Assembly: GCF_001027285.1 (NCBI RefSeq)
Contig: NZ_CP011509.1
Coordinates: 608,501 to 672,500 of the forward strand
DNA length: 64,000 nucleotides
Direction of reading: 5' to 3'
DNA from: Archangium gephyra
GTDB taxonomy: Bacteria; Myxococcota; Myxococcia; Myxococcales; Myxococcaceae
The position numbers were made by a program, and so were the translations under genes. Shown here one piece after another: positions 22,691 through 25,101 of the stretch (its first letter is position 1; every line of letters starts with the position of its first letter). The notes beneath the pieces are model-generated. The model saw only the letters and a program-made list of their open reading frames with translations, had not been told where the DNA came from and ran no database searches.

Positions 22691-22877
22691 GGCCACGGCT
22701 CCCGGGTTGCCCCGGTGTGAGGCGCCGCGGCTCCCATGAGACACTCCGGGCCGGGTGTCACCGTCCCGCCCCCCGCGAGTCACGCGGATGTCACAGGAGG
22801 AGCCGTTACCTCCGGGGTGTTCTTCCTGCAAGGGAAGGCGAAACCCGAGAAGGGCGAAGGCCCGGAGGAGGGAAGCC

Positions 22878-23780
22878 ATGAACCCGTTGGATTGGAATGG
22901 CGAGCAGTTCCTGGAAGCGTACCTGCCGTTCGGCCTGGTGATGCTGATCGCGGCGAGTCTCTGGCGGTCCCTGTTGAAGTGGAGCGAGCCGTCGGAGGAG
23001 CCGCGCCCCGGCGAGTTGGAGCTGGACCCCTACCAGGTGGCGATGCTCGAGCGGAGGGAGGGCGGGGTGAGGGCGGCGGTGGCGGCGCTGGTGCATGCCG
23101 GGGCGCTGCGATTCGAGAGCGGGGTGCTGAAGGCGGTGGACGGGCCGCCGCTGCGGCTGCTGCCCTTCGAGCGCGCGGTGTACGAGGCGGTGGCCGGTGG
23201 ACTGAAGGAGGTCTCGCAGCTGGAGACGAAGCTGAGCCGGGAGCTCGACCGGATGGAGGAGGGGCTGCGTCAGCGGGGCCTGCTGCTGAGTCCCGAGATG
23301 GCCGAGCGGTACAAGTACCCGAGGTTCCTCTTCTACGGAGTGGCGCTGGGGCTGGGAGGGATGAAGCTGCTGGTGGGGCTGTGGCGCGACAAGCCGGTGG
23401 GGTACCTGGTGATCGTGATCCTCTTCGGCATGATGATGGGCTCCCTGCTGTTGCAGGGCGCGCCGCGGCGCACGAAGCGGGGTGACAAGGCGCTGGCGAT
23501 GCTGCGGCGGGACAACGAGGCGCTGCGGACGACGGCGAAGGCGGACGGGGCGTGGGGGGCGATGAGCAGCGGGAGTGTGGCGATGGCGGTGGCGCTCTTC
23601 GGGACGGGGCTGCTGGCGGCCTCGGGGATGGGAGACCTGCGCGACTACCTGGTGCCGCCGGGGAGCGGGGGTTCCGACATCGGGGGTGACAGTGGAGGAG
23701 GCGGCGACGGCGGAGGAGACGGGGGCAGCAGTTGCGGCGGCGGAGGCTGCGGCGGTTGTGGGGGTGGAGGCGGGGATTGA
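22878..23780 (+). CDS. TIGR04222-type membrane protein with Gly/Cys-rich C-terminal tail (possible modified precursor)
   Basis: This is a 300-residue protein. It has an N-terminal TM segment (LPFGLVMLIAASLW), a cytoplasmic-looking middle domain starting LDPYQVAMLERREGGVRAAV (the TIGR04222 signature region), two further TM segments (YLVIVILFGMMMGSLLL and SVAMAVALFGTGLLAA), and a 40-residue tail almost purely Gly, Asp, Ser and Cys. The tail has three Cys near the end (CGGGGCGGCGGGGGD) and one more just upstream. The ATG at 22878 follows GGAGGAGGGAAGCC. The adjacent DUF692 oxygenase and SCO6045-like partner are typical of MNIO modification systems, so the tail may be the modified core. That role is inferred. 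Confidence 0.8.
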   Translation: MNPLDWNGEQFLEAYLPFGLVMLIAASLWRSLLKWSEPSEEPRPGELELDPYQVAMLERREGGVRAAVAALVHAGALRFESGVLKAVDGPPLRLLPFERAVYEAVAGGLKEVSQLETKLSRELDRMEEGLRQRGLLLSPEMAERYKYPRFLFYGVALGLGGMKLLVGLWRDKPVGYLVIVILFGMMMGSLLLQGAPRRTKRGDKALAMLRRDNEALRTTAKADGAWGAMSSGSVAMAVALFGTGLLAASGMGDLRDYLVPPGSGGSDIGGDSGGGGDGGGDGGSSCGGGGCGGCGGGGGD

Positions 23781-24613
23781 AGCCGCCCGCGGGAGTGGGG
23801 CTGGGGTGGAGGAGGCAGCTGGCGCACTACCTCGACGAGGCGGAGCGGGTGGACTTCGTGGAGGTGCTGGCCGAGCACCTGGATCCAAAGGGCCCGCTGC
23901 CGGAGCCGCTGAAGCGGCTGAAGGAGCGGGGAGTGCCGGTGGTGCTGCACGGGGTGTCGCTGGGGCTGGGGAGCGCGGAGCCGCCGGAGCGCGGGAGGCT
24001 GGACATGCTGGCGCGGCTGGCCGAGCGGCTGGGCGCGGTATGCGTGAGCGAGCACCTGGCCTTCGTGAGAGCGGGAGGAGTGGAGAGCGGGCACCTGCTG
24101 CCGCTGCCGCGCACGGGGGAGATGTTGGAGGTGCTGGCGGAGAACGTGCGGCGGGCGGAGGCGGCGCTGCCGGTGCCGTTGGCACTGGAGAACGTGGCGA
24201 GCCTCTTCGAGTGGCCGGGCGAGGGGATGACGGAGGCCCGGTGGCTGGCGGGGGTGCTGGAGCGGACGGGGGTGGGGGTGCTGCTGGACGTGGCGAACCT
24301 GTACGCGAACACGCTCAACCACGGGACGGACGCGGAGGAGGTGCTGGAGGCGGTGCCTCGGGAGCGGCTGGCCTACGTGCACGTGGCGGGAGGGGTGAAG
24401 CGCGGGGGCCTGTACCACGACACGCACGCGCACGGGGTGCCCGAGGGGCCGCTGGTGCTGCTGGAGAAGCTGGTGGCGCGGGTGGGGCCGGTGCCGGCGC
24501 TGCTCGAGTGGGATGACCACTTCCCACCGCCGGAGGTGCTCGGCGCGGAGCTGGAGGCGATGAAGGCGGCGCAGGCGCGAGGCGTGGCGCGGTGGAAGGG
24601 TGGGGGCGCATGA
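23777..24613 (+). CDS. DUF692 multinuclear non-heme iron oxygenase (MNIO)
   Basis: This is a protein of about 278 residues with a TIM-barrel DUF692 fold. Metal-ligand-bearing segments are visible: VVLHGVSLGLG, VSEHLAF, ALENVAS, LLDVANLYAN, YVHVAGG, HDTHAHGVPEGP and LEWDDHFP. Characterised family members (MbnB, TglH, ChrH) modify Cys residues of ribosomal peptides with the help of a partner protein. The start is best placed at TTG 23777: it overlaps the upstream TGA (TTGA), and a GGAGG lies six bases before it inside the Gly/Cys-tail codons. The longer frame to 23732 would read the tail region in another frame. It is coupled upstream to its presumed substrate and downstream to the SCO6045-like partner. 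Confidence 0.85.
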   Translation: MKPPAGVGLGWRRQLAHYLDEAERVDFVEVLAEHLDPKGPLPEPLKRLKERGVPVVLHGVSLGLGSAEPPERGRLDMLARLAERLGAVCVSEHLAFVRAGGVESGHLLPLPRTGEMLEVLAENVRRAEAALPVPLALENVASLFEWPGEGMTEARWLAGVLERTGVGVLLDVANLYANTLNHGTDAEEVLEAVPRERLAYVHVAGGVKRGGLYHDTHAHGVPEGPLVLLEKLVARVGPVPALLEWDDHFPPPEVLGAELEAMKAAQARGVARWKGGGA

Positions 24614-25101
24614 GCGCGCGCGAGAGATTGGCGAAGGCGCAGGCGGAGCTGGCGCGAGCGTTGGGGATGGGAGAGCCGGTGCCCGCGGGCTTCGACGCGG
24701 AGCGGGTGGGAGCGGCGGCCGAGGCACTGGGGATGAAGCGCCGGAGGCTGGTGCAGCGGACGTGGCCGATGCTGGCGGCGGCGTTGGGAGGGGACTTCGC
24801 GAGAAGCTTCGAGACGTGGGCGCGGGAGAATCCGTTGCTGGGAGTGGAGCCGAATCCGTTGGCGGACGGGAGGCGCTTCGCCGGAAGCCTGCGAGTGGCG
24901 GGAGCCTTCCCGGTGGAGGCGGAGGAGGAGTGGATCCACTTCGAGCTGCGCTGGAGGCTGACGAAGGAGGGAGGAGTGGAGGCGAGGAGGGGCGTGGTGC
25001 TGAAGACAGCCCGGGTGGGCAGGGCGAAGCGAAGGATGCTGGCGGTGCGTCTACCCGGAGGCCGGGTCCTCTGGTGGAGCAGCCATCGAGGAAGTCGCTG
25101 A
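24610..25101 (+). CDS. SCO6045-like partner protein of the MNIO cassette
   Basis: This is a 163-residue protein. The N-terminal half matches the SCO6045-like domain: ARERLAKAQAELARAL, then GEPVPAGFDAERVGAAAEAL, KRRRLVQRTWPMLAAALG and FETWARENPL. The C-terminal half is basic (VRLPGGRVLWWSSHRG). It overlaps the DUF692 stop by ATGA. By analogy with other MNIO systems it is probably the precursor-recognising partner of the oxygenase. The link is by context and family resemblance. Confidence 0.7.
   Translation: MSARERLAKAQAELARALGMGEPVPAGFDAERVGAAAEALGMKRRRLVQRTWPMLAAALGGDFARSFETWARENPLLGVEPNPLADGRRFAGSLRVAGAFPVEAEEEWIHFELRWRLTKEGGVEARRGVVLKTARVGRAKRRMLAVRLPGGRVLWWSSHRGSR

Follow-up and report, generated by a model that had tools for sequence, protein, structure and literature searches.

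Does an oxygenase of the MNIO (DUF692) family modify the cysteines of a protein that stays in the membrane? This question is raised by three genes on the plus strand, at positions 22878–25101 of a 64,000-nucleotide stretch (the window) that is part of the 12.49 Mb one-contig genome of Archangium gephyra. They encode a TIGR04222 membrane protein with a Gly/Cys-rich C-terminal tail, an MNIO oxygenase and a protein of 163 amino acids (aa). The first-pass annotation of this DNA had proposed that the tail is modified while attached to a protein with three transmembrane (TM) helices. Judged by comparison with related genomes, modification of the tail by the MNIO is the best reading of the locus, and a reasonably probable one.

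Gene organisation and conservation of the unit

The first and second genes overlap by TTGA (23777–23780), and the second and third by ATGA (24610–24613), which bears out the coupled layout of the first-pass annotation. The arrangement is not due to chance, as related genomes also keep these genes together. In an NCBIfam scan, the first gene product scored 134.8 bits against TIGR04222.1 (curated cut-off, 43), and in Pfam the second scored 265.9 bits against PF05114 (MbnB_TglH_ChrH; gathering score, 25). Both earlier identifications, that of a TIGR04222 protein with a Gly/Cys tail readable from its sequence and that of a DUF692 enzyme, were thereby confirmed.

When named genomes were searched with a profile of the enzyme, the best 80 of 366 loci were taken, a sample that is biased towards the enzyme. 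These loci came from Myxococcota, Singulisphaera (which we take to belong to Planctomycetota, the phyla of the other genera being assigned likewise), one Dormiibacterota metagenome-assembled genome and many Actinomycetota. The MNIO and the partner were found in 78/80 loci, a TIGR04222 gene in 73/80, and a TIGR04222 protein with at least two Cys in its last 40 residues in 62/80; both loci lacking the partner and four of the seven lacking TIGR04222 were stretches shorter than the full length. Three further samples were drawn by TIGR04222: 195 genomes of Myxococcota (32 matching above the cut-off), 50 of the Streptomyces order (Streptomycetales; 30 with a match) and 41 of the Nonomuraea order (25 with a match). 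Single orders were sampled because a phylum-wide draw of Actinomycetota gave just 6/149 genomes over the cut-off. Matches below the cut-off were mostly omitted, one of two being kept in the Streptomycetales sample and none of five in that of the Nonomuraea order. In two loci (L048:6564-7982 and L055:6924-8297), TIGR04222 and the partner adjoin without an MNIO, and the same genomes hold a TIGR04222-MNIO pair without the partner elsewhere, so that the unit seems to be divided between two places in the genome.

The oxygenase and its partner

Nine residues of the enzyme (His58, His93, Glu138, Asp171, His202, Asp215, His217, Glu244 and Asp246), which we take to be the MNIO metal ligands, are invariant in 12/12 aligned enzymes. 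At E ≤ 0.001, the enzyme matched two solved sequences, namely a DUF692 entry from structural genomics and the DUF692 subunit of TglHI. The enzyme falls below the cut-offs of the bufferin maturase family (NF050167 MNIO_BufB; 205.8 vs. 310 bits) and of HvfB (166.2 vs. 360 bits). In 16 chosen genomes, members of its own subfamily share 57–100% identity with the window enzyme, in comparison with at most 39% for other MNIOs. Asp249 (before Phe250), put forward as the catalytic base in PMC12668002, has its apparent counterpart in the invariant Asp246, as judged by eye via the 3bww alignment. The same genome carries two more MNIO operons, of the bufferin type and each with a DUF2063 partner (L077 and L078); their enzymes clear the BufB cut-off with 332.6 and 317.9 bits, and a 99-aa open reading frame (ORF) ahead of the L077 enzyme is a possible precursor.

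The 163-aa protein had no match in Pfam (E-values up to 1) or in NCBIfam (E-values up to 10). Its gene lies 3′ of the MNIO gene and carries no DUF2063 signature, which places it among the PME-type 2 partners. The AlphaFold2 model, built with 23 relatives, reached a predicted local distance difference test score (pLDDT) of 88.3 and a predicted template modelling score (pTM) of 0.80. When compared by Foldseek with 350,542 PDB chains, it ranked MbnC (probability, 0.95), TglI (0.91) and NGO1945 (0.82) first to third, with E-values of 0.04–0.15 that are weak alone, and no chain at E ≤ 0.001. VIA-align 2 gave Z 8.0 for TglI (149 residues; root-mean-square deviation (rmsd), 4.0), 7.4 for NGO1945 (118 residues; rmsd, 4.3) and 5.4 for MbnC (132 residues; rmsd, 5.0), at 9–11% identity to known MNIO partners in the structural alignments. 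As VIA-align Z values of 8 or less can mean just a common arrangement, weight was placed on the identity of the top seven rows, all of which were MNIO partners (Z 8.0 to 4.3), and on the gap to row eight, a cyclin (Z 3.3). The MNIO and the partner share one open frame in 32/80 enzyme-anchored loci, with the MNIO first in 32/32. Because of the fold ranking and VIA-align scores, together with the gene fusion, the modelled 163-aa protein is well supported as an MNIO partner. The first-pass annotation had called it SCO6045-like: the partner role stands, by fold and fusion, while the label is unverifiable, NCBIfam giving no name; the only paper found with the SCO6045 locus lists it as a hypothetical protein.

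The TIGR04222 protein and its Cys-Gly dyads

The AlphaFold2 model of the TIGR04222 protein (41 sequences; mean pLDDT, 86.3; pTM, 0.79) agrees with the three TM helices of the first-pass annotation. Membrane-length helices occupy residues 8–35, 147–169 and 175–192, and contain the highest-hydrophobicity stretches of the family average; a soluble domain lies between helices 1 and 2, and C-terminal helices (200–258) are followed by a disordered tail, in which pLDDT is below 50 at residues 266–280 and 282–287. The N-terminus, as read from the sequence, appears to be a TM anchor with an acidic lead devoid of Lys and Arg. The protein terminates in ...SSCGGGGCGGCGGGGGD, where Cys286, Cys291 and Cys294 each precede a Gly.

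The whole model had no Foldseek match at E ≤ 0.001, and comparison of the TIGR04222 and partner profiles revealed no similarity. Residues 43–262 of the model weakly resemble the GOLPH3/Vps74 (GPP34) fold, a resemblance unconfirmed by profile comparison. A relation to GPP34/GOLPH3 was only suggestive: VIA-align gave Z 7.7 to GOLPH3 (153 residues; rmsd, 5.6), the hhalign probability was just 20.7, and PF05719 was matched by 1/41 TIGR04222 members (E-value, 0.0028). A second TIGR04222 protein of the same genome (191 aa; L041:7138-7713, C1:6376637-6377212) has no adjoining MNIO; it retains TM helix 1, the soluble domain and a tail with GCGGC, and is missing most of the TM hairpin and C-terminal helices. 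In another genome (G093, L042:6648-10532), four TIGR04222 genes, one of them tail-less, stand in tandem ahead of one MNIO-partner pair.

Among relatives, tail length and Gly/Ser content drift. This drift, along with the small number of independent events described below, would fit a neutral low-complexity sequence of a GC-rich genome, next to which the gene order was inherited without function. Such neutrality is, however, highly improbable in view of the C-x2-C motif (x = Gly/Ser) near the C-terminus of 37/39 Myxococcota Cys tails, the retention of the unit across several phyla, and the residue that follows the cysteines. Gly occupies the +1 position of 131/164 tail Cys in Myxococcota (39 tails), 41/53 in Streptomycetales (12 tails) and 57/60 in the Nonomuraea order (16 tails). 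When the Cys were kept fixed and the other residues permuted, the mean counts were 80.1, 21.4 and 37.2, respectively, and 0/1000 shuffles reached the observed count in each group, a certainty that is overstated to the extent that the sequences are related. Ten of these 67 tails are unlinked to an MNIO. Enrichment at other positions is inconsistent: Gly at −1 is enriched in the first group, depleted in the second and neutral in the third, and Gly at +2 is enriched, neutral and enriched, respectively.

According to PMC12668002, FonB, a thiooxazole-forming MNIO, prefers Cys-Gly dyads, and the +1 Gly excess of the tails matches this preference by analogy; for thiooxazole, the paper gives an absorbance maximum near 305 nm. 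In the mechanism that we propose, the MNIO and its partner would form a heterodimeric oxygenase acting on the Cys-Gly dyads of the disordered tail, and the TIGR04222 protein would remain anchored in the inner membrane. The likeliest product would be 5-thiooxazoles formed from Cys, three at most, of the kind borne by captophorins and bufferins, a plausible outcome by analogy with these peptides; the modified tail could then serve as a tethered binding site for copper or another soft metal.

Linkage between Cys tails and the enzyme

For the counts, a Cys tail was defined by at least two Cys in the last 40 residues, and a protein was regarded as linked when the fetched stretch contained a same-strand MNIO. 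The counts cover complete proteins (42/43 in Myxococcota, 43/44 in Streptomycetales and 31/32 in the Nonomuraea order). In Myxococcota, 30 linked proteins had a Cys tail and 1 did not, compared with 9 and 2 of the unlinked ones, one broken gene (L038) being counted twice as two pieces. The corresponding figures were 11 and 18 (linked) and 2 and 12 (unlinked) in Streptomycetales, and 16 and 0 (linked) and 1 and 14 (unlinked) in the Nonomuraea order; the Streptomycetales row L257, which is below the family cut-off, and the sole unlinked Cys-containing row of the Nonomuraea order are not Gly tails. When only tails consisting of at least half Gly and Ser were considered, at least two Cys were present in 27/27 linked vs. 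1/9 unlinked tails of the two Actinomycetota samples, and in 30/30 linked and 9/9 unlinked tails of Myxococcota. Therefore, Actinomycetota Gly tails without the enzyme are nearly always without Cys, whereas Myxococcota show no such contrast.

In a tree of 109 TIGR04222 domains, from which the tails had been removed, linkage changes at least 13 times and tail state at least 7 times. Adjacency differs within 7 supported independent pairs; on average, the tail state changes in parallel in 1.9 of them and in the opposite direction in 0.0. The corresponding averages for linkage at any distance are 1.8 and 0.3, and the sign test cannot reach significance. The association of tail and enzyme in these sequences is thus consistent with the tree test, not proved by it.

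Several observations weigh against modification of the tail by the MNIO. Independent events are few, with seven changes in tail state and an independent-pairs test that is not significant. Reports of thiooxazole formation concern MNIOs that have a PME1 (DUF2063) partner and do not extend to the partner type seen here. Nine Myxococcota Cys tails lack an adjoining MNIO, and one of them (L068:6800-7648) belongs to a 98% complete genome, G056, without any MNIO match. Conversely, 18 complete TIGR04222 proteins of Streptomycetales are encoded less than 1.6 kb from the enzyme and have no Cys tail, and 4 of 16 Streptomyces genomes that were picked for a locus without a Cys-tailed neighbour have the enzyme but no TIGR04222 match. 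Finally, a 59-aa Cys-rich ORF recurs in 20/195 loci, all of the Streptomyces type, with and without a Cys-tailed TIGR04222 gene.

Part of these exceptions may have an explanation. In 7/9 unlinked Myxococcota cases, an enzyme of the subfamily is encoded elsewhere in the genome (one of the seven has a contig ending shortly behind), and, on this genomic content, most of the Myxococcota exceptions can be served in trans; the remaining two are G163, in which the gene is broken, and G056. The 18 linked Cys-less Streptomycetales proteins seem to represent a single tail-less paralogue, encoded on the strand of the enzyme; in the 14 loci of this paralogue whose gene order was examined, the enzyme is fused to the partner. 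Some Streptomyces (L130) have the order DUF4142, fused enzyme, Cys-tailed TIGR04222, DUF4142, tail-less TIGR04222, and others have no Cys-tailed gene. Among the 12 picked Streptomyces genomes with TIGR04222, 11 have no tail with at least two Cys, and the twelfth has one, adjoining another MNIO frame. From 1.5 kb upstream to 1 kb downstream of the 14 tail-less loci, three small Cys-containing frames were found (in L223, L224 and L236); that of L236 (L236:1193-1372), located upstream of the fused enzyme, encodes the 59-aa protein with 6 Cys, which could be the substrate there or an unrelated zinc-ribbon protein. In L103, L114, L122, L141 and their Streptomyces relatives, the MNIO-partner gene is kept without a Cys-tailed TIGR04222 gene, and DUF4142 genes are present where scanned.

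Unlinked TIGR04222 proteins of other Streptomyces (L180, L182, L183, L185–L187) end in Gly/His-rich tails such as ...GGHDHGGHDYGGGCGGGG. Because of these tails, the sequences suggest that TIGR04222 tails bind metal more generally, Cys plus enzyme being one version. An unmodified Cys tail might likewise bind metal or be redox-active by itself, with the MNIO and its partner modifying another substrate and the TIGR04222 protein serving as a scaffold, sensor or metal donor. Such an arrangement would account for the many Streptomyces that have the enzyme without a Cys-tailed TIGR04222 protein, for the tail of G056 and for enzyme-free Gly/His-rich tails, but it is somewhat unlikely given that the Cys-Gly dyad fits the substrate preference of MNIOs, that 8/9 unlinked Gly/Ser-rich Actinomycetota tails have fewer than two Cys, and that eight DUF2207 tails have none. 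Modification of the tail remains the preferred reading. The first-pass proposal is partly supported: gene order, the dyads and the Actinomycetota contrast favour it, but linkage between the tail-bearing protein and the DUF692 enzyme is incomplete both ways, and independent events are few.

Membrane topology of the tail

With three TM helices, the tail and the soluble domain lie on one side of the membrane, and by the positive-inside rule the side rich in Lys and Arg (K+R) is cytoplasmic. Over the 41 aligned TIGR04222 proteins, mean K+R was 0.05 at the N-terminus, 2.66 after TM1, 2.00 before TM2 and 5.51 after TM3, and a cytoplasmic C-terminus was favoured in 41/41 proteins by K+R count and in 37/41 by density. 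A wider set comprised 144 Cys-tailed proteins, some of them from repeated loci, of which 135 were usable (8 have another layout, and 1 lacks three TM peaks). Here, the same orientation was favoured in 135/135 by count and 127/135 by density, the tail side carrying 9.94 K+R over 45 residues vs. 0.96 over 13.7 on the opposite side.

Profile comparison revealed homology between TIGR04222 and DUF2207_C (hhalign probability, 97.6; E-value, 3e-12; 206 columns, TM hairpin region included), and 13/41 TIGR04222 members weakly match PF20990 (best E-value, 1.1e-5). Eight TIGR04222 matches below the cut-off were readable in frame (L198, L200, L203, L208–L211 and L215). Pfam confirms L200, as well as L199, as DUF2207, and the remainder of the eight share the layout: basic residues, a hydrophobic helix, an N-terminal domain, a TM helix followed by Arg/Lys, the homologous domain and the TM hairpin, one helix of which is under the threshold in L210. 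Their Gly-rich tails are free of Cys, and most terminate in SW. These DUF2207 relatives, whose first helix is signal-like, place the homologous domain on the inner side. Because of the charge bias and the homology to DUF2207_C, the tail is likely cytoplasmic, contrary to its published periplasmic placement.

Three points weigh against this orientation: the TM2-TM3 loop (mean K+R, 1.46) is as dense in K+R (0.183 per residue) as the stretch after TM1 (0.184), 8/135 proteins favour the opposite side by density, and residues 233–251 of the window protein are more hydrophobic (1.68) than the windows of its own TM1 (1.17) and TM2 (1.32). If the last stretch spanned the membrane, the tail would be outside. 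A fourth TM helix at 231–250 was considered less likely: in the model, the helix there is broken into pieces of 11 and 5 residues; the mean of the 41 relatives is 1.21, lower than in each of the three TM helices (1.78, 1.91 and 2.28); and tail-less Streptomyces relatives have an Arg inside the stretch. The same modification could also take place on a tail that is modified in the cytoplasm and then moved across the membrane. PMC12452194 states a likely periplasmic location of the tails, based on predicted TM topology, and reports that bufferins are periplasmic; the possible fourth helix at 233–251 points the same way. Given the K+R distribution of three-helix proteins and the inward position of the domain in DUF2207 relatives, export of the tail appears unlikely.

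With an N-out/C-in orientation, suggested by charge bias and homology, the tail would be within reach of a cytoplasmic enzyme without export. We tentatively consider, as a possibility that falls well short of probable, that the MNIO builds metal-binding heterocycles into the cytoplasmic tail of an integral membrane protein which is at no time exported or cleaved. Such an inward-facing tethered metallophore would have arisen on the Gly-rich tail found in the DUF2207 superfamily and would not be a secreted peptide natural product. What the tail does depends on which side of the membrane it occupies: facing inward, it would guard or sense intracellular metal, and facing outward, it would buffer metal outside the cell. 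If tail modification is true, MNIO chemistry extends beyond small peptides to the modification of a widespread family of membrane proteins. The features of the locus are listed in Table 1.

Table 1. Features of the TIGR04222-MNIO-partner locus in the window
Feature	Position	Strand	Basis or remark
GGAGGA, likely ribosome-binding site (putative function)	22864..22869	+	8 bases upstream of ATG
TIGR04222 membrane protein, 300 aa	22878..23780	+	TIGR04222.1, 134.8 bits; AlphaFold2 model
Gly/Ser/Asp/Cys tail, residues 262–300	23661..23777	+	Sequence; low pLDDT; C-terminal C-x2-C in relatives
MNIO (DUF692) oxygenase, 278 aa, TTG start overlapping the preceding TGA	23777..24613	+	PF05114, 265.9 bits
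MNIO partner (well supported), 163 aa, PME-type-2-like	24610..25101	+	AlphaFold2 fold; Foldseek ranks; VIA-align

Comparison with known systems

The locus resembles the bufferin and captophorin systems in having a related MNIO and Cys-Gly dyads as the likely target. Bufferin and captophorin precursors mostly carry Sec signal peptides, according to the papers describing them, whereas the candidate substrate here is a 300-aa integral membrane protein; in addition, these systems have a DUF2063 (PME-type 1) partner, and the partner found here has no DUF2063 match. A bufferin system was rejected by the tested features, namely the absence of a DUF2063 partner, an enzyme below the BufB cut-off and no basic lead before the first helix. 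As in TglHI and MbnBC, an MNIO is combined with a partner of the same fold. The precursors of TglHI and MbnBC are free peptides, unlike the membrane-anchored candidate described here. RiPPs in general are ribosomal precursors that an enzyme modifies and that are usually cleaved thereafter.

DUF2207 proteins share with the window protein the homologous membrane domain, the TM hairpin and a Gly-rich tail, and differ from it in an N-terminal domain behind a signal-like helix and in Cys-less tails, as read in eight cases. According to PMC10457818, Streptococcus mutans tolerated acid and peroxide less well when a DUF2207 gene was deleted, which by analogy is a weak hint of a role of the superfamily in stress.

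A literature search for the combination of an MNIO and a Cys-rich membrane protein found only PMC12452194, and no experiment on a TIGR04222 protein was found in the search results. In that paper (Antoine et al. 2025), subsets of TIGR04222 proteins are proposed as MNIO substrates via their Cys tails, PME-type 2 partners are reported in at least 10% of TIGR04222-MNIO clusters, and the tails are described as likely periplasmic. The general idea of an integral-membrane Cys tail as an MNIO substrate is therefore already published there, and the present locus is like those clusters in its Cys-tailed TIGR04222 protein, MNIO and, as in part of them, PME-type 2 partner. It differs from them in the predicted cytoplasmic tail, compared with a periplasmic one, and in belonging to a myxobacterial branch with C-x2-C, compared with mostly Actinomycetota. 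The +1 Gly enrichment in three groups, the homology between TIGR04222 and DUF2207_C, and the likely cytoplasmic placement of the tail are what the present analysis adds to these known systems.

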